Assembly: GCA_009602725.1 (NCBI GenBank) | Contig: WELB01000042.1 | Coordinates: 240,348 to 280,256, forward strand | Direction of reading: 5' to 3' | From: Spirogloea muscicola | Lineage: Eukaryota > Streptophyta > Zygnematophyceae > Spirogloeales > Spirogloeaceae | DNA: 39,909 nucleotides | Shown here: positions 8,910 through 39,745 of the stretch, in pieces | Position numbering within the stretch: position 1 is the first letter of the stretch | How the letters are laid out: each line of letters begins with the position of its first letter | Notes under the pieces: model-generated | The model's input: the letters and a program-made list of their open reading frames with translations, nothing else | Database searches by the model: none | What the model was told of the DNA's origin: nothing | Program-made: the position numbers and the translations under genes

Positions 8910-11691
8910 GTGCGGCGGCGGCGGCGGCGGCGGCGCGTGAGAGGCAGCGCCGCCGNGCCCGCGGGGCTTGCCGGCGGCGGCCGTGGCACCCTGCTGGTGG
9001 CTCTAGACGACGACGACGGCAACGCGGCGCTGACCCCCACGGCGCTGCCGCTGCCCGGCGGCACCCCGCTGCTGGCGCGCGCGTCCGCGAGCTTCCAGGA
9101 CCTGCTGCGCCTGCGCCGCCGCCCGCAGTCGCCGCGCCTCCGCCGCCTCGGCGTCGCGGCCATCCTCATGGTCTTCACCAGCTCCCAGGTGCGCGGCACC
9201 ATCACTTGTGGCCGTGTCAGTGTGTTGTGGTGTATGGGGCAAGTGTCAATGAACAGGTCAAGTGCTCAACTCGCACAGGCGAAGGTGTCGGAGATGTCAG
9301 CTCTGGCCTGGTCTGCGGGTACAGTGTCCGGTAACAATGTCGCGCAGTCCATGAGATGTTCAAGCCCATACGTGCGAGCAAGGCCTTGCTCACGAAGCCC
9401 TTGCGCTGGCGTCGAGCACAGGGCCTGCTGACAGCCCTGTCGCGCGGGGAGCGCGGCTATGCGTACGACTACGCGACTCTGCCGCTGTTCATTGAGCTCC
9501 TCAAGGTGCAAAGTCTGTCTCTGTCGTGCATTGCTTCGCGCTTTCACTTGTGCCTTTCGAGCTCTGTAGACACACAGTGGCATGTCAGCTGACTGCAGCA
9601 ATTTGCTGCTGCTCTGCCATCGCCCCAGATCATGATCTGCTCCATCATGCTGTGGCGCGAGGCCCGGGGCCCGCGGCGGCTGCAGATCACCGCGACCTGG
9701 CGCCAGTTCTGCCTCTTCCCGGCGCTCGCGGCTGTGTACCTCGTCAACAACAACCTGCAGTTCCCGGCGATCCACCTGCTCGGACCTGTCACGTACCAGA
9801 TTCTCAGCAACCTCAAGATCCTTACCACCGGCGTCCTCTTCCGGTGCGTGCACCACCATGCCCTCCTTTCTGCATTTGGGCTCGGCACCCACTCTAGCCA
9901 GGACGGCGTCTGACGCCAGGAGCTGCCCCCGCTGTGCTGTGCACTGCGACGGCAGGATTGTGTTGCGGAAGAAGCTCACAATGCTGCAGTGGATGGCGTT
10001 GGTCCTCCTCATGGTCGGCACTGCAACGAGCCAGGTCAGTGGCCCCCTACTGTTTCAACTGCCTGACCTCCTTAGCTGTACTCCCCTTATCCAGGAGCAA
10101 TAAGTACCATCACATCTTGGGTGGTCACTGCAGGGTACAGCCCAAGGTCCAGGGCACCAGTTGTTTTACTGGAAGTCGAATCTCGACTTAACTGGAAGTC
10201 GAATTTCAGTTAGAGTGCTTGCCAAGCTGCTGGAATTTGTGATCTTTGAGCTCGTCTGGGAGAGGCCTGAAGCTCTGGTTGCCACAGCCCGCAGCCCGGC
10301 TAGTGCTGCCAGCTCGGAGTCAATGCAGTGCTTGCCGACAAGCTCTGTCGCTGAAGGTGCAGCCACCTAAGTGCCAATGCCGCTCTCATCGAGTCAATGC
10401 TGCCCCTTTCGCAGCTTCACGGCTCCGGCATGGATGGCGCGGTCTTTCAGGCGCCAGTGGAAGGCTACGCTCTAGCTGTGCTCATGGCGTGTCTATCCGC
10501 GGCAGCGGGCGTGTACGCTGAGTACCTGATGAAGAGTACCAATGATTCGATCTACTGGCAGAACCTGCAGCTGTACAGGTCAGCAACACGCAGCATCAGC
10601 TGCCCTTGAGAAATTGCAAGTGCAGCTGCCCATCACTTCATTTGCCGGGCTTCATAACACTTCTGGTACCCGATCACCTCATGGCACCTCAAGCCATGAG
10701 GTCGTTGAAGGATTCAGTTGCACACCCTATCTTGTGATTGGATCACCTAGACATTCCAGATGCTCTAGCTGAGGCGGCTGCTGTGTACGTAAGTTTCTGT
10801 TCAGCTGTGGCGTCGTCTTCAACGTCCTGATATTGACGGCGCGCGACGTTGGGTACCGTGGCGGCGAGCCAATCTGGTGGCAACAATTGGGCGTCAACTT
10901 CAATGCTGCCACGTGGCTTGTTGTGCTCAACGCCGCCCTCACAGGGCTGCTCGTTTCGTGGGTCATCAAGTACGCTGACAACATTGTCAAGGTTTGCATT
11001 GCAAGGCACTTGAGCCAGACCACCTTAATTCACATTGTCTGGTCAAATTTATCAGAGAAAGCCTCATTTTCAGTCCTCGTTTTTCTCCACCAAGCCTTTC
11101 TCCAAAGAGATGATAGCGAGCTTGACGTATTGGGTGGTATTCTCTGGTTGTGAGGTGCACTTGCAAGTAGAGCTGATTGTGAACATCGCCTCTTAGGTCT
11201 ACGCAACTTCCACCGCCATGCTGCTGACAACTGTCATGTCAGCGGCGCTGTTCGAGTTCAGCGTCACACCTCAGGTGCTATTAGTGATCAATGGTGCTGC
11301 TCTTCAAATCAACATTGCTCCTTTCTTATCACCTGCGCAGCGCAATCAACCTCCAGTCCCAGAATCATGCATTTATATACTCAAAGCACTAAGGCCCTTG
11401 ATTGCTGTCAAAGTCCTACTTCGCAGATCCTGTACCTCAGAATCAGAGGCTGCTGAAGCTACCCTGGAAAGATGGAGCTGTCAGGGTTGCTTAGACCGTG
11501 TGGGCTGCAAGCCTGCTGATGGTGGCAGGGTTGGGGCGCAGGTCTTGCTGGGCATTGTGACCTGCGGGCTGTCCTTGCAGATGTACTTCACGCCTGCGCA
11601 CATCCTTCTCAGTGTGCAGGCGTCCGCCGACACCTCTGACACTGGGGGCCAATTTCTTACTTCCGTGCGCGTGTCCAAGCAGAGCGACTGA
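8910..11691 (+). CDS. Nucleotide-sugar transporter, CMP-sialic acid/UDP-sugar type
   Basis: Predicted Golgi or ER antiporter that exchanges a nucleotide sugar for the matching nucleotide monophosphate; the exact substrate cannot be read from sequence. Exons: ~8910-9188, 9422-9505, 9629-9843, 9956-10034, 10415-10578, 10805-10991, 11197-11274, 11542-11691; phases agree at every junction, giving about 411 residues. Family marks in order: YAYDYATLPLFIELLK, LVNNNLQFPAI, QILSNLKILTTGVLFR, LQWMALVLLMVGTATSQ, GVYAEYLMK, YWQNLQLY, GLLVSWVIKYADNIVK and VYATSTAMLLTTVMS. These match the Nuc_sug_transp family (PF04142), usually ten membrane spans and 320-400 residues. The start is unresolved: no in-frame ATG lies between a stop at 8871 and the N at 8956. 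The listed start is a GTG, and an ATC at 8898 sits in a Kozak-like GCCGCC context. A TGTAA at 11776, the usual chlorophyte polyadenylation signal, lies 85 bases past the stop. Confidence 0.88.
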
Positions 11692-23486: not shown

Positions 23487-23739
23487 CGTCGCGCGTCAGC
23501 CGTCGTAGGGGCTGACGCGCCGAAGGTTGACGGCGGTGGCGTCGTCACGGCAGCGGGCCGACGGGCGGCCGCAGCGGCNGGCGGCGAGGAGAGGGGGGCT
23601 GGCGGCATGGAGGTAGGCGGGGGGGGCGGAGTGCAGGGCCGGGGCTGCTCCGCGCCGGGAGGAGGGCCAGGGGGAAGTAGATGGACAGTGTTCCTGACTT
23701 CTTCCTGATACTGACTGACGGAGGGGGCCTGAGTGTTGA

Positions 23740-23950
23740 TTCCTCGTTCCGTTTCGTGGGCTGGCCCTCTCAGGCATCGCCCTCTGCTGGAAGAGTCTTC
23801 GTTCCTTCTATTTTGGGCCGGCTTTTCCAGCCCCTATCCTCAATGGGCGAGCCCTTTCTCTTTCTGTCTTGGAAGCGTGCTACTGCTCTGTCGCCCTGTC
23901 GGCCCTTGGGCTGGCTTTGCTAGCCCCTCTTTATCTATGGACGAGCAATT
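23740..23950 (+). repeat. Tandem LINE 3' tails
   Basis: Two or three tail hairpins in a row in the same orientation: a stem near 23815-23833 (GGGCCGG...CCAGCCC) followed by ATGGGCGAGCCC, and another near 23907-23925 (GGGCTGGC...GCTAGCCCC). A third, partial GGGCTGGCC lies near 23759. This suggests repeated insertion at or next to an existing tail. No coding part is attached. Confidence 0.65.
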
Positions 23951-24047
23951 TCTTTGGACCTTTTGCAATCAGCCACACTACACAGAGACAGCACAGGCTC
24001 CGCCTGACCGCACCCTTGGAGCACCCTTGGAGCATCCAGCATCGACA

Positions 24048-24520
24048 CACATCGCTCGCCACGCAGTGGGCGGTGCAGAACAAAGAAAGCTGCAGCACTA
24101 CTCCGATTACCCCCAATGCGATCAGCTCCTGCCAGCCGCAGTCGACATCTTTGGCTGTCTGGGTACTCGTTTCCACACCCTCCTTCAAAATATTACCAAT
24201 CTAGGCTACACACGATGTGCAGATGTGTTTCCGGCTGAGATGGGCTTGCCAGCTGCATATCTGTTGTTCTTGCGACGACGAGTTCCGGCCTGTTTGCAGC
24301 GTGCTCAGGCTAATGCCTTGCACCAGAAAGGTGGGCGAGCTTTACTTGGTGGCGGATGGGCTTCGCATCTGACATCTAGTACTCAGGCATCGATTAGCGA
24401 CCTTTATGTTTTGACCCGTGATTACTGAGCGGGTCAATCTGCTGTAGCTTATGTAGATCTTCAGATGTGCCTGCCCTTTTACTTGGCATTTGGCCTTCGT
24501 TTGTTTGAAATGCACGTAAT
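24048..24520 (+). mobile_element. LINE family B, 3' end
   Basis: Frame ending at 24428 contains QLLPAAVDIFGCLG, CADVFPAEMGLPAA and the C-terminal ending ISDLYVLTRDY. The ending is homologous to, but clearly diverged from, family A. It is followed by a 3' UTR beginning TGAGCGGGTCAAT, shared with 30320-30391 (inverted) and 31738-31835. The terminal nested hairpin is recognisable but decayed near 24478-24515. The 5' part is missing. Confidence 0.75.
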
Positions 24521-24639
24521 TTCCCTTGGAGGGCTGCAGCCGTAGCTAGGGCGCACAGAGCAGCGCGATCGGCCCCGGAGTCAGACCGGTGTGCCGGGAC
24601 CGCCCTTCTACAGGGAGGCTCCCACGGCCGATGAAAGTG

Positions 24640-24875
24640 CTCGTATGTAGAGAAGAGGGGCTGGCAAAGCCAGCCCAAAAAGAATGGACAATGTCCAAAG
24701 CCAAGGAAGAGGTGCCGGAAAAGGACTACACTACCAAACAGGACAAAACACAGGACGATGCAGAGGGAAGCTCAGTACCCGCGAGTGAGCAACATCAAAG
24801 AGGCACTCCGCCGAGACCCAGGGGCGGCGGCCAGAGCACGTCCTGCTCGCCTGTGGACGGTGTGGGCGAGAGAGC
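24640..24875 (-). mobile_element. LINE family A, 3' end (tail at 24657-24676)
   Basis: From right to left: C-terminal codons ending LMLLTRGY and a stop at 24772-24774, an ~80-base 3' UTR, and a hairpin tail, GGGGCTGGC-AAA-GCCAGCCC (24657-24676). It is inversely repeated at 8450-8580 and directly similar to 28880-28968. Its 5'-truncated end meets the 5'-truncated end of the next copy, so the two are head to head. Confidence 0.75.
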
Positions 24876-24879
24876 GTTA

Positions 24880-25130
24880 AAATGATACCTCCAGGCGCAT
24901 TCGGAAGACTTGGGCGACTGTTTCCGCCTGCTAGCTATTCAGATCTGCATCTACTGACTAGAGGTTACTGAGCGTCCGCTTGCTGCTGTCTCAGTCCTTA
25001 GCACTCCGGCTCCTTCAGACCTTCGTCCATTCCTTTAGCTCGTAGTTTGGCCCCTTCGAACCTTGTCAATTCTTTTCGGGCTGGCTTCTCACAGCCTTTG
25101 CCCCCATTGGGAGAACCACTTCTCTCTTAT
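24880..25130 (+). mobile_element. LINE family A, 3' end
   Basis: Begins in C-terminal coding sequence (PPASYSDLHLLTRGY, stop 24969-24971), then a 3' UTR shared with the inverted copy at 28697-28745, then a hairpin tail of a different subtype (GGGCTGGCTTCTCACAGCC near 25078-25096, then CCCCCATTGGGAG). The 3' UTR of one subtype is joined to the tail of another near 25040, so a second insertion or template switch is likely there. Confidence 0.75.
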
Positions 25131-25135
25131 AAGAG

Positions 25136-25242
25136 CAAGCGCGGCCAGAGTAACTGGTGGCTGGGAGAGGCCAGCCCAAAAAAATGGACAAAGGCTGGCC
25201 TCTCCCAACCACCAGTTAATCTGGCCGCGCTGGCTAAGATCT
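25136..25242. repeat. Palindromic pair of solo LINE tails
   Basis: Two copies of the ~55-base tail (GCGCGGCCAG...CTGGTGGCTGGGAGAGGCCAGCC...AATGGACAA type) in opposite orientation, sharing their inner ends around 25187-25191. The outer ends are the 3' termini. The unit has two possible stems of its own and the pair forms a ~50-bp inverted repeat. Confidence 0.8.
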
Positions 25243-25254
25243 GGTGGGATTAGC

Positions 25255-25336
25255 GGAGTCGATACAGCGAGCGCGGCCAGATTAACTGGTGGCTGGCAGA
25301 GGCCAGCCCAAAGGAATGGACAAGGAGTCGATGCAG
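25255..25336 (-). repeat. Solo 56-bp LINE tail with 13-bp target-site duplication
   Basis: Insert 25268-25323 consists only of the tail (AGCGCGGCCAG ... CCAGCCCAAAGGAATGGACAA). It is flanked by GGAGTCGATACAG (25255-25267) and GGAGTCGATGCAG (25324-25336), a 13-bp duplication with one mismatch. It sits inside LINE coding sequence, which continues on both sides when compared with the copy near 29614. Confidence 0.85.
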
Positions 25337-25930
25337 TCAGTTGTCACCACATCGGCGATGATGCGGGGACCGCCGCCGGGCGGGATGGCGACCAGGTCGG
25401 CGCGTCGAGTATGGGGCTGGCCGTCCGCGTCCGGCTGGATGGGCATTATGGAGGTGTTCTCCACAGCCACCTTGAGGCCCGCCGCCATGAACACCCCCTG
25501 CATACCATCGCGCAGGAGATCGTGGGAGCCGGTCCGCTCGCCCCCGTGCGCGCAACGGAGCATATGCGCAGCCAGCTCCGCAGGGTCGGCGTGACGGGCA
25601 CCGCACTCGCACTGAGTGACGCCCACGAGGCAGGGAGGGAGGAAGCCCAAGAGCCGATGGACCGCCGTCCTAAAGACCTCATCGGGCATGGTTTGCGCCG
25701 CGTAGAGTGGGAGCGCTGACAACCACGCCGCCGCCCCTGAGGAAGAGGCTGACAGGAGCCTGGCACGCCCGCGGAGGTCAAACGGAGGGATAAGCTCCAC
25801 CACCTGGTCAGAGGCTGTTCTTTCAACCAACGCCGTGAAGCGTGCCTGGGCACGCAGGTCGGGGGTGTAGGCGAGGTGAATGGGACGGCCTGCTCCGACA
25901 TGTTGGGGTGGACCGCCAGGAGCCCGTCGC

Positions 25931-26040
25931 GGGCAGAGCGGAAGAAGTGGCTCTCCCAACGGGGGCAAGGGCTGTGAGAAGCCAGCCCGAAAAGAATTGA
26001 CAAGGTTCGAAGGGCAGAGCGGGCAGAGCGGGCAGAGCGG
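25931..26040 (-). repeat. Solo 70-bp LINE tail, 11-bp target-site duplication, then 9-bp tandem units
   Basis: Insert 25942-26011 (AAGAAGTGGCTCTCCC ... GACAAGGTTCGAA) lies between two copies of GGGCAGAGCGG (25931-25941 and 26012-26022). Two further GCAGAGCGG units follow to 26040. The uninterrupted target is visible in the inverted copy near 26245-26265. The tail matches 33015-33085 and, inverted, 29890-29970 and 25050-25125. Confidence 0.88.
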
Positions 26041-26171
26041 AGGGCGACCTGGAAAGGCAGCTGGCCGGTCTCCACTTCAGCTGCCGCCCGCTGGCGCGCT
26101 GGCCGTGCAAGAGGAATCTCTGGCACATGGGGACCCCACGTGCCAGAGGTTGCAGCCCCCCTGTGCCAGAG

Positions 26172-26580
26172 GTTCCTCGTCCACGGCCAGCGCGCCCTGG
26201 AGCGGGCGGCAGCTGAAGTGGAGACCGGCCAGCTGCCTTTCCAGGTCGCCCTCCGCTCTGCCCGCGACGGGCTCCTGGTGGTCCACCCCAACATGTCGGA
26301 GCAGGCCGTCCCTTTCATTCATCTCGCCCACACCCCCGACCTGCATGCCCAGGCACGTTTCACGGCGTTGGTTGAAACAACAGCCTCTGACCAGGTGGTG
26401 GAGCTTCTCCCTCCGTCTGACCTCCGCGGGCGTGCCAGGCTCCTGTTAGCCTCTTCCCCAGGGGCGGCGTCGTGGTTGTCAGCGCTCCCACTCTACGCGG
26501 CGCTAACCATGCCCAATGAGGTCTTAAGGACGGCGGTCCATCGGCTCTTGGGCCTCCTCCCTCCCTGCTGCAACCTGAGC
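26172..26580 (+). mobile_element. Inverted copy of LINE family A segment
   Basis: Plus-strand sequence coding RAAAEVETGQLPFQVALRSA through RLLGLLPPC matches the minus-strand copy on the left, but lacks the 70-bp tail insert. The arms meet around a ~60-base centre (26112-26171) that itself contains smaller inverted CTGGCAC/GTGCCAG segments. The copy ends abruptly where minus-strand LINE sequence resumes. Confidence 0.8.
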
Positions 26581-26582
26581 CC

Positions 26583-26930
26583 AGCTCCCCATGTAGGCCG
26601 CCTCACAGACGCGGGCAACCGAGCTGCATCCCAGGTTGCCGCGACTGGTCGGCAGGCTAGCCTGCAGCAGCGCAGCTGGTGAGGTGAGGAACGCGGGGTG
26701 CTGCACGAGGGTGGCTGCGGACGCCAAGATGCCGGAGTCAAATGCCGCATACGCTGCCTTCACCGCCGATGAGGGAGTGACGGTGCGGGCCAGATAGTGT
26801 GGCCGCTGCGCGATGCAGCGTGTCAGCATAGCGGTCGCCAGCTGCATGTCCTGCAGCGTGTGGAGGCAGTCCGCCGGCCGGAGGTGTTCCTGCAGCCGCG
26901 CCTGCAGCCGATGGGCTGAGTCAGATGATC
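26583..26930 (-). mobile_element. LINE fragment, region after the reverse transcriptase core
   Basis: Minus-strand frame with LATAMLTRCIAQRPHYLART, AAYAAFDSGI and VARVCEAAYMGSW resembles the segment that lies between the reverse transcriptase core and the zinc/endonuclease module of many LINEs. No catalytic YADD-type motif is in the window. It is probably the upstream part of the same insertion as 25245-26111, separated by the inverted piece. Confidence 0.65.
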
Positions 26931-27104
26931 ACCCAACCCGACCTGCGGGTTCACCATATGACTACATCAAACAACAAGCAATGCTGCAGAAGGTAATCTG
27001 CCGCATTCAGTACATTAGGGCCTGAGAGCCTGTGGCATTAAACATCTGCCTGCTCCCCAGGCCGAGATCGGAAGACCGGAAAACTTCATCGTTGAGGCCT
27101 TGAG

Positions 27105-27137
27105 TGGAGAAGGCCAGCGCAGAAGAATGTTGACAGG
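27105..27137 (-). repeat. Diverged LINE tail remnant (possible)
   Basis: GGAGAAGGCCAGCGCAGAAG followed by AATGTTGACAGG resembles the GTGAGAAGCCAGCCCGAAAAG...AATTGACAAGG tail with several substitutions. It is short, so the match could be chance. Confidence 0.35.
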
Positions 27138-27198
27138 ATCCGGAGGGGTTTGTATTGAAGCGCTCGCTTTCAATCACTGTCTACTTTTGGAGGGGGGG

Positions 27199-27205
27199 TA
27201 TAAAA
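27199..27205 (+). promoter_or_regulatory. Candidate TATA box
   Basis: TATAAAA follows a G-run (27191-27198). No coding sequence is visible downstream on this strand. A perfect hairpin lies ~115 bases further on (27318-27349), so a short non-coding transcript is conceivable. Confidence 0.3.
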
Positions 27206-27317
27206 TGTCTCTTTCCTCCGGTCACATTCATCAACATGTATCGCTCGTGGTGTGACATGTGTGCCCTTTGACCAGCCATCCGGTCACAAGCCGTTGCTGA
27301 CAGTCAATTGGCTGAAA

Positions 27318-27349
27318 GCAACGGCCCACATACGAATGTGGGCCGTTGC
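27318..27349. other. Perfect 14-bp hairpin with ACGA loop
   Basis: GCAACGGCCCACAT (27318-27331), loop ACGA (27332-27335), ATGTGGGCCGTTGC (27336-27349), no mismatch. It is not the LINE tail and does not resemble the histone mRNA stem-loop. Its role is unknown. Confidence 0.8.
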
Positions 27350-27439
27350 AGCAAGGACGACCCTAAACCCCTCAGTCTCTTAAGTACACCTTTCTCGCAT
27401 TCATATCAATATCCTGTTTCATCATTTTCACAGCAGCTA

Positions 27440-27809
27440 CGAAGGGCCCTGAAGATGCTATGTCAGAACGGGGGAGGATGGACCACTCAGTAGTTACGAG
27501 TGAGGAGCCTCAAATCCGACAAACCAGCTGCCGGAAAGCTATCCCCCTGCCGAAAGCCTGAGGCCGCGGCGAGAGCACGGCCAGCACACAGATGCAAGGC
27601 GTGGGCCATGGACCGCTGAAGGGAGACCGACAATCGCATGCGGTATACCTTGGCCCACGAACCAGCGGCGTTGAAGTCAGCCGGCTCACCGCGCCTGCGG
27701 GACACAGCGCGCCGCGCAAGCCTGGCCAGCAGGTCGGGCCACTGACAAGAGAGTGCTCGCCCATAGACCCCCGCCACTGAGACCCGAGAGCCCCGTGCAC
27801 GTCCACAGC
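27440..27809 (-). mobile_element. LINE family A, C-terminal region and part of 3' UTR
   Basis: Minus-strand coding pieces AVDVHGALGS, then (after a frame change) WPDLLARLARRAV, SWAKVYRMRLSVSLQRSMA, GRALAAASGFRQGD and the ending LSDLRLLTRNY with a stop at 27487-27489. The 3' UTR start (GGTCCATCCTCCCCC on the minus strand) matches the plus-strand copy at 29838-29855. The hairpin tail is not seen here. Confidence 0.75.
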
Positions 27810-27880
27810 CATTGCCCCCATTGGGAGTGCCACTTTCCTTCCTTTTCACAGCCCTTGCCCCCATTGGGAGCTCTCGTCTC
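27809..27880 (+). repeat. Partial LINE tails, plus orientation
   Basis: TTGCCCCCATTGGGAG occurs twice (27809-27830 region and 27856-27872), the second preceded by TTTTCACAGCCC. These are outer parts of the tail subtype seen at 25078-25125. They abut the 5'-truncated end of the minus-strand LINE. Confidence 0.6.
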
Positions 27881-28189
27881 CTGGTAGCTGGTCCCCTGGC
27901 GAGGAAATGCTCGCCCTGAGAGAAGAGGGAAAGGCGCGCGGGGCGCATGAAATGAAAAGGGAGGCCAATTCAAGCCAATACACAGTTCAAGCAGAGGCGA
28001 GTGCAAACTAAACAAGGCTACATGAAATAGAGACCTAAACTAAGGTGCCTAAGGTGACATTACTACCCACGGGAGAGCACAAACAAATCGGACAAGCTAA
28101 CTTGGGGAGCTGGAGCGCCGCCACGAAAGCCGGAGGCCCGACTTAGAGCGCGCCCTGCACGTTGATGAAGAGCCAAGGCTTGCAAAAAG
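27881..28189. other. Unassigned spacer
   Basis: No gene or clear repeat. The stretch near 27950-28010 (AGGGAGGCCAATTCAAGCC...) weakly resembles 31925-31975, so it may be an old repeat. Confidence 0.4.
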
Positions 28190-28550
28190 GGGGGGCTAAC
28201 AAAGCCAGCCCAAAATAAGAAGAAAGGGCTCGCCCACTGAGGATAGGGGCTGGAAAAGCCAGCCCAAAGAAGGATGAACGAAGTACTAGAAGGGGGCCAG
28301 GGGAAGCACTAAGAAGAAACAAGCACAAAATGAAACAAAGCAGCTACGAAGCACTCAGTAACCCCTGCTAAGCAGCCTCAGGTCAGAGAAGCTGGGCTCC
28401 TGGAAGCGGGTCCCCTGGCCAGAGCCAGAGTCAGCAGCGAGGGCTCTGCCGGCACGCAGGTGCAGCGCGCGGGCCATAGACCGCTGCAGCGAGACGGCCA
28501 AGCGCATACGGTACACCTGCGCTAGCAACCCGGCTGCAGGAAAGTCCACC
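28190..28550 (-). mobile_element. LINE family A, 3' end with two tails
   Basis: C-terminal coding sequence (QVYRMRLAVSLQRSMA, GRALAADSGS, FSDLRLLSRGY) with a stop at 28355-28357, a ~110-base 3' UTR, a hairpin tail near 28247-28266 (GGGGCTGGAAAAGCCAGCCC), and an additional, imperfect tail near 28192-28212. The 3' UTR closely matches 15905-16000 and 33140-33237. Confidence 0.8.
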
Positions 28551-28635
28551 GGCTACCCATGGAAGCGGCGGACGATGGCGTGGCGGGCGAGGTGGTTGAG
28601 CAGCTCGAGCCACCGAGCCACCGAGCGAGACAAAA

Positions 28636-28870
28636 GAAGCAAGCGCGGCCAGGTTAACTGGTGGCTGGGAGAGGCCAGCCCAAAGGAATGGACAAGGTCT
28701 GAAGGAGCCGGAGTGCTGAGGACTGAGACAGCAGCAAGCGGACTCTCAGTAACCTCTAGTCAATTGATGCAAGTCTGAATAGCTAGCAGGCGGAAAGACG
28801 TCGCCCTGACGGAAGCCGGAGGCCGCCGCCAAAGTGCGGCCTGCGCGAGAGTGGACCGCGAAGGCAAGGG
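28636..28870 (-). mobile_element. LINE family A, 3' end with GCGCGGCCAG-type tail
   Basis: C-terminal coding end (PPASYSDLHQLTRGY, stop 28746-28748), a 50-base 3' UTR shared with 24972-25030, and the tail 28640-28696 (GCGCGGCCAGGTTAACTGG, then GGCTGGGAGAGGCCAGCC, then AATGGACAAGG). This copy shows that the solo tails at 25136-25323 and 39674-39745 are LINE 3' termini. Confidence 0.82.
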
Positions 28871-28874
28871 ACCA

Positions 28875-29125
28875 CTGCAAAGAAAAAAGAATGGACGACG
28901 TCCAAATGCAAAAAAACGGTGCCGATAAAGGACTACACTACAAAACACGAGATGATGCAGAGGGAAGCTCAGTACCCGCGAGTGAGCGACATCAAGTCAG
29001 AGTAGCTTGCTGCAGGGAAAGAGGCACTCCGCCGAGACTCAGAGGCGGCGGCCGTAGCACGGCCTGCTCGCGTGTGGACATCGTAGGCAAGGGACTCCAT
29101 CGACTCGCGGGCGCAGGCGCGATAC
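28875..29125 (-). mobile_element. LINE family A, 3' end
   Basis: C-terminal codons (TRAGRATAAASESRRSASF, then SYSDLMSLTRGY) with a stop at 28969-28971 and a 3' UTR similar to 24690-24771. The outer tail is cut off near 28880. The 5'-truncated end abuts the next copy at about 29126, in head-to-head orientation. Confidence 0.75.
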
Positions 29126-29985
29126 GTGGCGGAGGTCGACAAGGCGGCATTCGCGGCCACGCTGCGGCTCCTCACTCCGACGGACGTGCGCGGCCATGCT
29201 CGGCTGCGGTCGATTGCCTCCCCTGGCGCGGCAGCCTGGCTTTCCGCGCTGCCCCTCTACGATGCACTCAGGATGCCGGATGAACTTGTCCACACGGCAG
29301 TCCACCGCCTGTTGGGTCTCTCCCCGCCCTGTCTGCTGCAGTGTGAGTGTGGGGAGCGGTCGGCGGACCCGGCGGAGCTGGCGGCGCATGTCCTCCGCTG
29401 CGCCACTGGAGGTGAACGTACAGCTGCTCACGACATCCTCCTGGATGCAATGTTCGGCATCTTCCAGGAGGCCGGATACACGGTGGCGACGGAGAAGACT
29501 TCTGTCTTGCCAATCCTCCAGAGGGCCGACGGACTCCACAAGCGTCCATTTGGTGGCGTCCAAGCTGGGCGGGGGCGCGCGCATCATTGCTGATATGGTC
29601 ACCACTGATGTAGTCGACTGAAACAATCCGGGGCTTTCTGCCTCGCGGGCTGGCCACGCTGCGGCGTAAGCCGCTCACTGCAAGGCGGCCAAACACGCTG
29701 ATCACCTGGCTGGGGACGACTTCGTACCCCTGGCCGTGGATGTACTCGGGGCTCTTGGATCCCAGTGGCTCGACCTGCTGGCCGAGGCGGCAGCTAGTCT
29801 GTCGGATGTGAGGCTCCTCCCTCATCGCTTCTGAGTGGTCCATCCTCCCCCCGGTCTGCCATAGCGCTTTAGGCCCATCCGTCATTTGGCCCCTTCGAAC
29901 CTTTGTCAATTCTTTTCGGGCTGGCTTCTCACAGCCCTTGCCCCCATTGGGAGAGCCACTTCTTCTTCTGCTTTTAGCCCCCATT
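29126..29985 (+). mobile_element. LINE family A, endonuclease region to 3' tail
   Basis: The longest plus-strand copy. It codes AAWLSALPLYDALRMP, a zinc motif (QCECGERSADPAELAAHVLRC), HDILLDAMFG, then after a frame change ARIIADMVTTDVVD, then in another frame DDFVPLAVDVLGALGSQW, and ends LSDVRLLPHRF with a stop near 29833. An internal deletion removes the VYRMRL...GRALAAAS part. The 3' UTR and tail (GGGCTGGCTTCTCACAGCCC, CCCCCATTGGGAGAGCCACTTC) run to about 29972. At least two frame changes make it non-coding. Confidence 0.82.
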
Positions 29986-29994
29986 GGGAGAACC

Positions 29995-30310
29995 ACTTTC
30001 AGGGAGCGTTGAAACTATACCGCCAGGCGCATTCGGAATGGCGAGCGAACCGGCGGCGTTGAAGCCGGGCATCGCCCCTGGCAGACCCGGCCGCCGGTCA
30101 ATGGCCTGACGGGCAAGCCGCTGGAGGAGATGCAGCCAGCGGCTGCCGAAAGCCCCGTGAACATCTATCGCCAGGGCCGCGAGTTCGTCACCAAGCGGGT
30201 GATCCGCGTCTTTACGCTCCTTGCCCGGGCCGCCAGGCCGACCGCGTGCCCTGCAATCGACTCCGATCTGGCGGAGTCGACGGCCCTGGCGAGGGCCAGG
30301 ACAACTGTCG
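29995..30310 (-). mobile_element. LINE family A, C-terminal fragment
   Basis: Minus-strand coding sequence GDELAALAIDVHGAFGSRW, LLQRLARQAIDRRPGLPG, FNAAGSLA. It corresponds to the segment just after the endonuclease signature. It lies between the tail of the copy on its left and a family B 3' UTR on its right. Confidence 0.7.
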
Positions 30311-30319
30311 TTCGTGTAT

Positions 30320-30635
30320 TTGTGAGAAACAAAGGCCAAATGGCCAAGTACAAAGGCCAGCACGTCTACAGACATATATCGCCTACAGCAGGTTGACCCG
30401 CTCAGTAACCACGGGTCAACACGTGAAGGTCGCTTATTGATGCCTGAATACTGGATGGCAAATACGAAGCCCTTCTGCCACCAACTAGAGCTCGCCCAGC
30501 TTTCTGGTGCAAGGCATTAGCCTGAGCACGCTGCAAACAGGCCGAAACGCGTCATCGCAAGAACGACAAATATGCAGCTGGCAGGCCCATCTCAGCGGGA
30601 AACACATCTGCACGTCGTGCATAGCCTAGATTGGC

Positions 30636-30675
<40 letters not shown>

Positions 30676-31290
30676 TTCTTTAGGAGAGTGTGGAAACGAG
30701 AACCTAACAGCCAAAGATGTCAACTGCAGCTGGCAGGAGCTGATCGCATTGGGGGTAATCGGAGTAGTGCTGCAGCTTTCTTTGTTCCGCACTGCCCACT
30801 GCGTGGCCAGCAATGTGCGTCGATGCTGGACCTTTTATACACCTCCATGACAACAACATCGACCAAGGCCCGTGGTCCTCCACCAGGTTGCGCGCCCACA
30901 ACGTCAAGTGTGCGGCGATGATGGCGTCCCTTGGCATCCGTGGTGATAGGCATGATGTTGTTCACTTCCACGATCGCACGGTATTCGGCATCGCGTATCA
31001 AACCCGCCAGGGCATCGCGGAGGAGGTTGTGAATGCCAACCACTTCCCTTCCAGTGGGGCAACGCAGCATATGAGTGGCGAGCTCAGCACCCTCTGCACG
31101 GAAGCCACACTCACACAGGCGCACCCCAATCAGGCAATTAGGTGGGAGGCCGAGGAAGAGTTGAAGCGACGTCCGAAAGGCCTCGGAGCTGAATCTGAAG
31201 GTGACGGCAACGGCGTGTGATGTGATCCAGTCGGTGGCACCAGGTGTGGCGAAAGAATTAAGTCTTGCCTCCTTGGATTGTTCTGAATCA
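30320..31290 (-). mobile_element. LINE family B, endonuclease region to 3' end
   Basis: Minus-strand: SFATPGATDWITSHAVAV, SSEAFRTSLQLFLGLPPN, a zinc motif (LCECGFRAEGAELATHMLRC), HNLLRDALAG, RHHRRTLDVVGAQ, RALVDVVVMEV, then after a frame change the QLLPAAVDIFG region, with a stop at about 30391. The 3' UTR and decayed hairpin end are at 30320-30390. The endonuclease module is homologous to family A but strongly diverged. An AAT microsatellite has expanded within it. Confidence 0.8.
30636..30674. repeat. (AAT)n microsatellite
   Basis: About 13 AAT units inside LINE family B coding sequence. Other copies have only a short AATATTACCAAT-like seed at the matching place (24188-24200), so the expansion happened after insertion. 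Confidence 0.9.
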
Positions 31291-31295
31291 GGGGG

Positions 31296-31835
31296 TCTTG
31301 GAGGACCACGGGCCTTGGTCGATGTTGTTGTTATGCAGGCTTTATTATGGTCCAGCATCGACGCACATCGCTGGCCTCGCAGTGGGCAGTGCAGAACACA
31401 GAAAGCTGCAGCATTACTGCCATTACCCCCAATGAAATCAGCTCCTGCCAGCTGCAGTCGACATCTTTGGCTGTTTAGGTCCTCGTTGCCACACTCTCCT
31501 TCAGAATATCCCCATTCTGGCCTGTGCACGACGTGCAGATGTGTTTCCGGCTGAGATGGGCTTGCCAGCTGCGTAAGTATCGTTCTTGCGATGACAAGTT
31601 TCAGCATGTTTGCAGCGAGCTCAGGCTAGTGCTTTGCAGCAGAAAGCTGGGCGAGCTCTAGTTGTTGGCAGAAGGGTTTCTAATCTGCCACCTGGTTTCC
31701 AGGCATCGACTAGCGACCTTCATGTATTGACCCGTGGTTACTGAGCGGGTCAATGTGATGTAGGTGATGTACGTCATTAGATGTGCTTGTTTTCGTACTT
31801 GGCCATTTTGGCCTTCGTTTGTTTCAAGTACACGA
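31296..31835 (+). mobile_element. LINE family B, 3' end, inverted relative to its left neighbour
   Basis: Plus-strand: RALVDVVVM, then in shifted frames the segment matching 24048-24428, ending TSDLHVLTRGY with a stop at 31740-31742. The 3' UTR is followed by a nested hairpin: GTACTT (31795-31800) pairs with AAGTAC (31826-31831) and encloses GGCC-ATTTT-GGCC (31801-31813). It begins within ~30 bases of the start of the minus-strand copy, so the two are head to head. Confidence 0.8.
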
Positions 31836-32239
31836 TAGAATTTCTTCTTGGTGCAGGGCTGCATGGCGGTGCTGGTGACCATAGGTCAGATTTGTTATAG
31901 GTAGAAGGCGCGGGTGAGCATGAAATTGAAGGGGAGTCAAGCCGAGCCAGTGCACAACTCACGGCCCAAAAAGTGCAATGTGCAAAGAATGGCGAAAGTG
32001 AAGGCCTAGGCGCACTTTGAGTTGGCGCTTTCTTGTACAATTGGAGATAGCAACTCTAGGACCTAGTTGAGTGCTATGTGTCAATGGGAGGCCGTTGGCC
32101 AAGGTTTCAATATACATCTACGCCTCAGGCCCCGCTGTATGTTACAGCCACTGCACGGAGCCAGTTGGCAACGGTCGTCGGGTTGGCAGGACGGACTGCT
32201 CGAGCAGGCCCTCACCCCATTTCGACGCTCTTTCTGCGA
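31836..32239. other. Unassigned spacer
   Basis: No gene seen. It includes a stretch near 31925-31975 weakly similar to 27950-28010. Confidence 0.4.
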
Positions 32240-32725
32240 TTCACATAGTTACGATGCTTGACCTTCCCAAGCGCTCTCGGCTCTTGGCTGATGTAGGTGC
32301 CTCGACGTTGACAGCCCATCCTGTGTAGTTGCAGCAAGCACTGGAGGAGACTGACTCACGTCTGGCCTGGCTGCAGTCCTTGGCGGGGCCTGTCTCGAGG
32401 ACGCTTCGTAGCTGCATGGTCAGCGATGCCGGAACGCGGATCTGTGGCAAGAGCTCGCAGCAAGGGACGCCGCCAGCTTTGCGATGCGCTGCTTGTCTGG
32501 GGGTGCTGCCTGGCATCTTGGGCACAGGAGCTCGTAAGGGGTCGGACGGCAGCTAGTACATCAGCTCGCGGGATCCCTCGGCGGCCTGCTCGCAGCCTCG
32601 CAGCAGCTGGCGAAGGCGGCGACGGCGGCGGCGGAGGCGGGCGGCGACGGCGCTGAAGGCGACGGCTCGCCCGCAGCCACTGCCGAACGGCCGTCGGCGC
32701 CTCCGGCCGCGCTGTCTGCCTCTTC
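32240..32725 (+). other. Possible gene remnant with coiled-coil-like codons
   Basis: After a possible acceptor at 32328 the plus strand reads LQQALEETDSRLAWLQSLAG; further on (32580-32720) an Ala/Gly/Pro-rich frame with high GC3 reads LAASQQLAKAATAAAEAGG. The two pieces could be exons of one gene, but start, end and frame linkage are not visible, and the stretch is cut by a poly-T/CCG tract. The family is not recognised. Confidence 0.25.
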
Positions 32726-32726
<1 letters not shown>

Positions 32727-32758
<32 letters not shown>

Positions 32759-32761
32759 NTT

Positions 32762-32801
<40 letters not shown>
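32727..32801. repeat. Poly(T) 32-mer, one N, then (CCG)n
   Basis: 32 T residues (32727-32758), N at 32759, TTCTCG, then about 12 CCG units (32764-32801). This could be the poly(A) end of a minus-strand retrocopy, or an assembly join. Confidence 0.85.
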
Positions 32802-32802
<1 letters not shown>

Positions 32803-32974
32803 GCGGCGCCATGGCCGGGCAGCAGGGAAGGCTGCGTCGTCGGCGTTCCTTCCTCTCTGTCGCGTTTGCCGTCTAGCGTCCCCGGAAGGCGCCTACGCGG
32901 CCGCATTTGGGGCCGGCGGATCCGGGACGGGGATCGGACCCGCCTGGGGCGACCGGTCGGATGATCCTCCCCAG

Positions 32975-33250
32975 AAACGGAAGGGCTCGCCCATTGAGGA
33001 TAGGGGCTGGAAAAGAAGAAGTGGCTCTCCCAATGGGGGCAAGGGCTGTGAGAAGCCAGCCCGAAAAGAATTGACAAGGTTCGAAGGGGCCAAACTACGA
33101 GCTAAGCAGCGACTGCGGGGCCTGAAGGGCTGGCTTTTTTGGGCTGGAAAAGGAAGAAGGAACCAAGTACGAGAAGGGGGCCAGGGGAAGCGCTAAGAAA
33201 CAAAGCACAACCAGAAACAAAGCGGCTACGTATCACTCAGTAACCCCTGC
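32975..33250 (-). mobile_element. LINE family A 3' end, nearly all 3' UTR, with fused tails
   Basis: From right: the last few codons and stop (TCA at 33237-33239), the family A 3' UTR (33140-33237), then a tail of the GTGAGAAGCCAGCCC subtype (33015-33085) fused to a truncated tail of the GGGGCTGGAAAAG subtype (32980-33014). The copy is 5'-truncated almost exactly at the stop codon. Confidence 0.75.
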
Positions 33251-33328
33251 AGTCCCGAGGCCCCCCCGCCTGCAACTGCGAGCTCGGGAGACAGCTATTT
33301 CATTTCAAATATATTCTTTCTATATAAG

Positions 33329-34150
33329 GGGGGAGCTGTGAGAGGCAAGCCCCGAAGAAGTATAAGGTCCGGCAACCAGAGAAGAAAGGGAGGAAGGCGC
33401 AAATGCACGAAAGTGGTCTCCATGGCTCCTGCCGAGTGGGCGTTCAGTGACCTGTGGTCAGCAAGTGCCGATCAGAATGAGTAGAGTGCGGGAAAGCGTC
33501 GCCCTGTCGGAGCCCGGAGGCAGCAGCCAAGGCGCGGCCTGCCCCCAAGTGGACGAAAAACGCCAAGGGCCGTTGCAGGGGAGGAGGCCCGCGGTGGCGA
33601 GCTCGGGGGGAGCCCGCCATGGCGGCCCCCGGGGTGGGGCCCACCCCCGGCCCGCGGCGGCGCGCCGTGGTTCCGTGCATGGCGCCGGGGCGGCAAGCCC
33701 GAGAAACGCGTCGCCCGGGGCGATGGGGGGTTTGTTGGGTAGTCCACAGCTTGCCCGTGCCAGTGCCGTGGTACGAGGGGACGTGGGCGGGGCCGCCTCG
33801 AAGCTTGCCGCGGCCGCCATGGCAGCGGGCGCGCGCGCGGAGTGCGGCGCCAGGCCGTCGTCCCACATGGCGTAGGCCGCTGCTAGGAGGCGGGACTACA
33901 ACAAAGCGTCGTCTGCCGGAGCTGCGGCGCGCAGCTCGCTCGCTGGGAGGGCGCGCATGTCCTGGAAGGGCGCAAGCCTTCGCGTGTAGTCCCGCCGCCG
34001 CCCAGCGGATGCGAGGATTGCTGAAGGAGCTGCCTCGCGCGCTTTGGTCGTTTGCGGGGAGCGGCGGCTGCATCGAAGCGTGGCATTGGCGAGCTCCTGC
34101 GCAGGGCTGAGAAGCGCAGATGTGCCTGCGGCGCTCGCCATGCTTCAGCG
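33329..34150 (-). mobile_element. LINE family A, old degraded copy
   Basis: The minus-strand frame ends GRALAAASGLRQGD then a diverged ending before a stop at 33444-33446. A possible decayed tail (GAGCTGTGAGAGGCAAGCCCCGAAGAAG) lies at 33334-33368. Upstream pieces (RRDYTRRLAPFQDM, AAYAMWDDGLA) lie in different frames. It is more diverged than the other copies, so probably older. Confidence 0.55.
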
Positions 34151-39673: not shown

Positions 39674-39745
39674 CCTCCGCTACCTTGTCCATTCCTCTGG
39701 GCTGGCCTCTCCCAGCAACCACTTAATCTGGCCGCGCTTGCTGTC
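39674..39745 (-). repeat. Solo LINE tail in the 5' flank of the iron transporter gene
   Basis: The minus strand reads GCGCGGCCAGATTAAGTGG, then TTGCTGGGAGAGGCCAGCCC, then AGAGGAATGGACAAGG. It matches the tail of the LINE at 28636-28870 and the solos at 25136-25323. No LINE coding sequence is attached. The flanks (GGACAGCAA and GTAGCGGA) show no clear target duplication. Confidence 0.8.

Follow-up and report, generated by a model that had tools for sequence, protein, structure and literature searches.

A hairpin-bearing tail insert with a target-site duplication in a nested cluster of retroelement-like tails of Spirogloea muscicola

Several LINEs of the stringent type are described as requiring a stem-loop at the 3′ end of their RNA, and such a stem-loop is reported for algal L1 elements too (PMC5135761; PMC3747384). 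Target-site duplications in the L1 clade are reported to peak at 13–15 bp (PMC4245944), and for human L1 nearly 80% of the 5′-truncated insertions are reported to carry microhomology at the 5′ junction (PMC2912911). The algal LINE Zepp is portrayed as building nested clusters that consist mostly of 3′ ends, owing to frequent 5′ truncation (PMC8226300), and nested Zepp-like clusters are also described in PMC3446292.

The DNA analysed here (the window, a stretch of 39,909 nucleotides taken as a whole) resembles the stringent LINEs (UnaL2, ZfL2, SART1, plant and algal L1) in a predicted, apparently conserved hairpin near the 3′ end, in 5′ truncation and in target duplications, and one copy of the family here called B runs into a short TTC repeat, in keeping with the accounts in PMC5135761 and PMC3747384. 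Unlike in those elements, the insert considered below consists of the tail alone. With Zepp and Zepp-like L1 elements, as described in PMC8226300 and PMC3446292, the locus shares nested clusters made mostly of 3′ ends and insertion into existing copies. However, Table 3 of PMC3747384 gives the 3′ repeats of Zepp as poly(A), whereas the tails in the window finish in GCGCTTGCT or in CACTTC-like ends. We do not claim membership in Zepp, as the tails have no poly(A) and the scanned reading frames yielded no reverse transcriptase for comparison. SINEs with a LINE tail (e.g. the SINEX families of Chlamydomonas; PMC3747384) are likewise non-autonomous and have a LINE 3′ tail in common, but the insert has neither head nor body, and no tRNA gene was found in the window. 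A narrow literature search, judged by titles and abstract openings, brought up no account of comparable inserts made of a tail alone.

The 56-bp insert and the coding segment it interrupts

The insertion at 25268–25323 is confirmed as real and well bounded, and it lies in a nested cluster. It is defined by the following features:

25255–25267, no strand assigned: first copy of the target-site duplication, GGAGTCGATACAG
25268–25323, minus strand (sense): A-family tail insert of 56 bp, with the conserved hairpin GGGCTGGC..GCCAGCC and a weaker second hairpin
25324–25336, no strand assigned: second copy of the target-site duplication, GGAGTCGATGCAG
25324–25881, minus strand: interrupted retroelement-like coding segment with a C-C-H-C motif, with paralogues at 29087–29590 (plus) and 30840–31358 (minus)

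Read on the plus strand (25255–25336), the two flanks are identical at 12 of 13 positions at zero offset. Only 6 of 200,000 random 56-bp intervals of the window had 13-mer flanks with at most one mismatch at this fixed offset, and since flanks this alike are so rare, we regard the tail insertion as a real observation. A duplication test with flexible boundaries gave p = 0.004 (0.4% of 2000 random intervals scored as high). Each junction is ambiguous by up to 2 bp, namely CC at the sense 5′ end, which could serve as microhomology, and CT at the sense 3′ end. The first-pass annotation had described a 56-bp insert with near-perfect 13-bp flanking duplications, and its coordinates proved exact. 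Its description of the unit as a 3′ tail alone, free of poly(A), is borne out as well: aligned copies have the 3′ end in common and differ at their 5′ ends, and the insert carries no poly(A). Because the common end lies on the 3′ side of the minus strand and the variable end on its 5′ side, the minus strand is taken as sense. The interrupted reading frame (minus strand, 25282–26076) has the same sense and reaches its stop within the insert. No empty site was found for this insert, since the alignment of the paralogue at 29521–29720 breaks off at the target.

The interrupted segment aligns with its two paralogues at 56% (29087–29590) and 41% identity (30840–31358), and keeps the residues C-E-C-G..H...C. 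By resemblance, it may be the C-terminal part of a LINE protein. The segment had no Pfam match. Of the 121 listed open reading frames, 43 were scanned against Pfam, among them every one of the 37 with a start between 23085 and 33883, and none showed a reverse transcriptase or endonuclease domain. Two matches exceeded the cut-off, PMSR and a nucleotide-sugar transporter; GDSL lipase, tissue factor and AZUL matched weakly and stayed below it, and nothing retroelement-like turned up. The earlier claim that the insert interrupts a LINE coding sequence holds for the interruption of a reading frame; the name LINE is one that we infer, since these 43 frames show no reverse transcriptase domain. PDB searches with the segment gave nothing significant (a profile search returned four weak, unrelated matches, best E 0.48), and a structure model built with three sequences, of mean pLDDT 41.5, was too poor for use.

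Elsewhere in the window, the best PDB match of a methionine sulfoxide reductase is 2j89, a plant protein; this and the base composition would suit a eukaryotic host, perhaps a green alga. Large palindromes are found at 25630–25942/26252–26568 (94%), 30312–30882/31299–31835 (80%) and 26028–26265 (87%), the first two of which consist of retroelement-like coding segments. Single N bases occur at 8956, 16348, 23579 and 32759, each in or beside GC-rich or homopolymer sequence.

Related tails in the window

A profile built from 14 tails gives 24 matches in the window at E<0.01, comprising its own 14 sequences and 10 new ones, and no match below E=1.7 in the reversed window. The matches sort into four families, A to D, with some smaller scraps besides, and make the window a nested graveyard of tails. 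An A-specific pattern has four matches in the window and none in 100 shuffles. Apart from the insert, the A tail recurs as follows:

25134–25192, minus strand: short A tail, head-to-head with the next, with no duplication
25193–25235, plus strand: partial tail, the 3′ part of an A copy (reference 259–301), whose reference part 133–257 lies at 24912–25036 on the same strand
28638–28698, minus strand: A tail as the 3′ end of a longer copy, with an upstream body in common with 24912–25036
39683–39742, plus strand: short A tail of about 60 bp, convincing duplication not found

The sequence upstream of the tail (A-reference 133–257) recurs at 24912–25036, which agrees with the first-pass statement that the same tail forms the 3′ end of longer copies. 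The three short A copies have no base in common by which they could be told from the long ones, and hence there is no sign of a separate short-A lineage. A tails finish in GCGCTTGCT or near variants, and C and D tails in a comparable CCCTT(T)C or CACTT(T)C. Among the B copies, all four main ones finish in CACTTCT; on a 121-base reference numbered from a position chosen by the analyst, they begin at 1, 31, 42 and 48.

Some rearrangements of these copies may be recorded separately. The two A tails at 25134–25235 make up a small palindrome. One A copy (24912–25036 with 25193–25235) and one D copy (28883–28994) are broken at homologous positions, reference 257 and 258, where the 3′ hairpin has its 5′ base, and the A copy picks up again at reference 259 beyond an inserted stretch. 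At that point a C copy (33150–33250 with 32980–33013) is missing about 9 bases (260 to 270) next to a B insert, which itself sits further on, in the 3′ arm of the hairpin. The break point common to the A and D copies could mark a hot spot of insertion or a place of template switching.

Tails of the other families include two further inserts with duplications and two other copies:

25943–26011, minus strand: B-family tail-only insert of 69 bp, with the duplication TCCGCTCTGCCC at 25931–25942 and 26030–26041
33016–33140, minus strand: B-family insert of 125 bp, with the duplication CTTTTCCAGCCC at 33004–33015 and 33141–33152
23798–23857, plus strand: short C-family tail of about 60 bp that starts at the homologous point, convincing duplication not found
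29885–29967, plus strand: B-family tail of about 80 bp that runs into three TTC units, convincing duplication not found

The 69-bp insert is located in the same coding segment as the A insert. Its 12-bp duplication (p 0.0015) is less clear-cut in that 25931–26041 lies within a local 9-base repeat, the target itself being a short repeat. An empty site is available for it: the inverted paralogue at 26171–26330 holds TCCGCTCTGCCC once and lacks the insert. Two extra 9-base repeats (26012–26029) at the sense 5′ junction are missing from the empty site and look like the product of junction slippage. The 125-bp insert sits within the hairpin of a C-family tail and has an exact 12-bp duplication (p 0.007); in the uninterrupted C copy the 12-mer is present once, at 28247–28258. 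Altogether 18 tails were subjected to the duplication test over 19 intervals (one copy at two lengths), leaving out 6 of the 24 matches (the long copies 15922, 28282, 8541, 24693 and 28696, and the C piece). Convincing duplications were found for three, the A insert and the two B inserts; the copy E8677 was borderline (p=0.04), and 14 tails were without.

In profile coordinates, the lengths of 17 truncated tails are 32, 35, 37, 45, 46, 48, 49, 52, 59, 60, 60, 60, 60, 70, 77, 87 and 114; the last value measures 125 by its duplications, and the P values given below were computed with 114. Start positions were entered by hand from profile matches and alignments, such that those of degraded copies depend on the profile alignment. 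This count leaves out the same five long copies and two others that later insertions have divided (25193 and the C piece 33015–32981). The first-pass annotation had described uniform units, which the window does not confirm: the tails range from about 32 to over 110 bp, and the other two duplicated inserts measure 69 and 125 bp. Continuous lengths without an excess at tail size, which that annotation names as counting against its reading, are largely the picture within these 40 kb, except that 4–5 of the 17 tails start together.

Searches outside the window returned no relatives. The general tail pattern hit two stretches in viral_contigs and three in genome_contigs, none with a hairpin before the match, and with the hairpin missing all five were taken as chance. 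The A-specific pattern gave no match in viral_contigs, and 125 pattern stretches from the coding alignment A1 included no confirmed relative there. There was also no match to phages with the B tail, to plasmids with the coding segment P0001, or to E. coli genomes with the A copy including its body.

Structure of the tail RNA

The first-pass annotation had emphasized that the tail keeps a double hairpin. Folding does predict this structure in two of the three A tails folded; however, none of them clearly beats its shuffles (z of −1.57 in the insert and of −0.42 and +0.23 in the other two). Among 11 tails folded singly, those clearly above shuffles were D8540 (z −5.99), D24630 (−3.23) and C28221 (−2.66). 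Each pair of the main five-pair hairpin is kept in 13 or 14 of 14 tails, and the pairs are almost invariant, so that they offer no covariation support; in the weak second stem, one pair has two-sided changes.

A closing stem is predicted in D8540 and C28221, where bases near the start of the domain would pair with its 3′ part. In a swap test over four families, at least one swapped 3′ arm in each paired as well as or better than the cognate arm. The test shows no compensatory change, and the closing stem was dropped as evidence.

Rfam gave no match at gathering score in the whole window. At E values up to 5, the region 23600–33400 yielded 11 sub-threshold matches, all far below gathering scores: eight lie at 25138–25307, the tail palindrome (seven microRNA models and one Plasmodium RNA model), and three elsewhere. 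All matches being sub-threshold, an identity as a ribozyme or known RNA was rejected.

Origin of the insert and its meaning

The insert is very probably a severely 5′-truncated copy of a LINE-like non-LTR retrotransposon that arrived by target-primed retrotransposition. The reverse transcriptase of the source element probably recognises the 3′ hairpin. The machinery of the element would nick the target near the end of the coding region of another copy, and reverse transcription would be primed at the 3′ end of the RNA (..GCGCUUGCU in the A family). About 56–58 nt would then be copied before reverse transcription stops early, and the other cDNA end would be joined to a staggered second nick, possibly aided by up to 2 nt of microhomology per junction, giving rise to the 13-bp duplication. 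In favour of this origin stand the flanking duplication, the common 3′ end with its variable 5′ starts, the second tail insert with an empty site, the third with a duplication, and the lack of poly(A). Points against it are that no reverse transcriptase or endonuclease domain turned up in the 43 scanned frames, that convincing duplications flank just 3 of the 18 tails tested and neither of the other two short A copies, that the 69-bp B insert has its duplication in a local repeat, and that the A insert itself yielded no empty site. A start point common to 4–5 of the 17 tails also exceeds what random stopping would give, provided that all of them are independent.

This clustering invites a reading in which reverse transcription tends to halt on reaching the 5′ edge of the conserved 3′ domain, for instance with the enzyme staying bound, which would create an excess of domain-sized pieces. 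At about 60 bp, five of 17 starts fall in one 2-bp bin (P 0.003; P 0.046 if four are counted) under a null of uniform starts, which is crude. A conservative count, in which two A copies 75 bp apart are taken once and the degraded copy 35736 is dropped, leaves three of 15 (P 0.30), and the data give only a weak hint that pieces of this size are favoured. The common start lies near the onset of the similarity of A to C (reference 241) and D (240), and could reflect a stop at the border of a bound RNA domain or simply a limit of constraint. This edge is not sharp, however: between A and B the likeness extends about 11 bases further upstream, and D resembles one C copy upstream as well (70% over 243 bases, one comparison). 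The closing stem predicted in D8540 and C28221 would join the start of the domain to its 3′ part, but shows no covariation in the four families, and many tails have their 5′ limit elsewhere. We consider such a preferred stop rather unlikely. The broader idea of independent movement of the conserved domain of about 60 nt, by way of a short, discrete RNA or of a programmed stop at its 5′ edge, seems to us improbable.

As an alternative to very frequent stopping of reverse transcription, the first-pass annotation had raised a distinct mini-element, for which the spread of lengths and the absence of a diagnostic base in the three short A copies provide no support. Under this explanation, a short RNA of the conserved 3′ domain would be made or trimmed and mobilised in trans as a non-autonomous unit of about 58–60 bp. 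The same start clustering and the nearby onset of similarity to C and D tails are compatible with it, and the homologous point CCTTGTCC/CTTCGTTCC is where one short C copy and every one of the three short A copies begin. However, the clustering fades in the conservative count, two of the three duplicated inserts are longer, no convincing duplication flanks the short C copy or the other two short A copies, no base tells short from long A copies, and the window has neither a tRNA gene nor an Rfam family at gathering score. We give this explanation little credence.

Local segmental duplication or slippage could account for three A-tail pieces within 190 bp (25134–25323), two of them in a palindrome, but is very improbable in view of the exact-offset duplication around the insert, the same tail in other contexts at 28638 and 39683, and the B insert with its empty site. 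A MITE with a long target duplication would likewise be short, hairpin-rich and duplication-flanked, but can practically be dismissed, as CGAGCG.. at one end and ..GGACAA at the other do not form inverted repeats and related copies keep one end and vary at the other.

If the 5′-truncated retrotransposition that we favour is of the ordinary kind, the locus adds one more case of heavy 5′ truncation and nested insertion in an apparently hairpin-tailed LINE family. If a discrete mini-element were real after all, an RNA of about 58 nt beginning at CCUUGUCC would be expected. A genome-wide excess at about 60 bp would suggest that an RNA domain recognised by the reverse transcriptase sets the end of copying, which could be tested in vitro. 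Finally, if the 3′ domain moves alone, domain-sized inserts could seed host transcripts with a retrotransposition tag.
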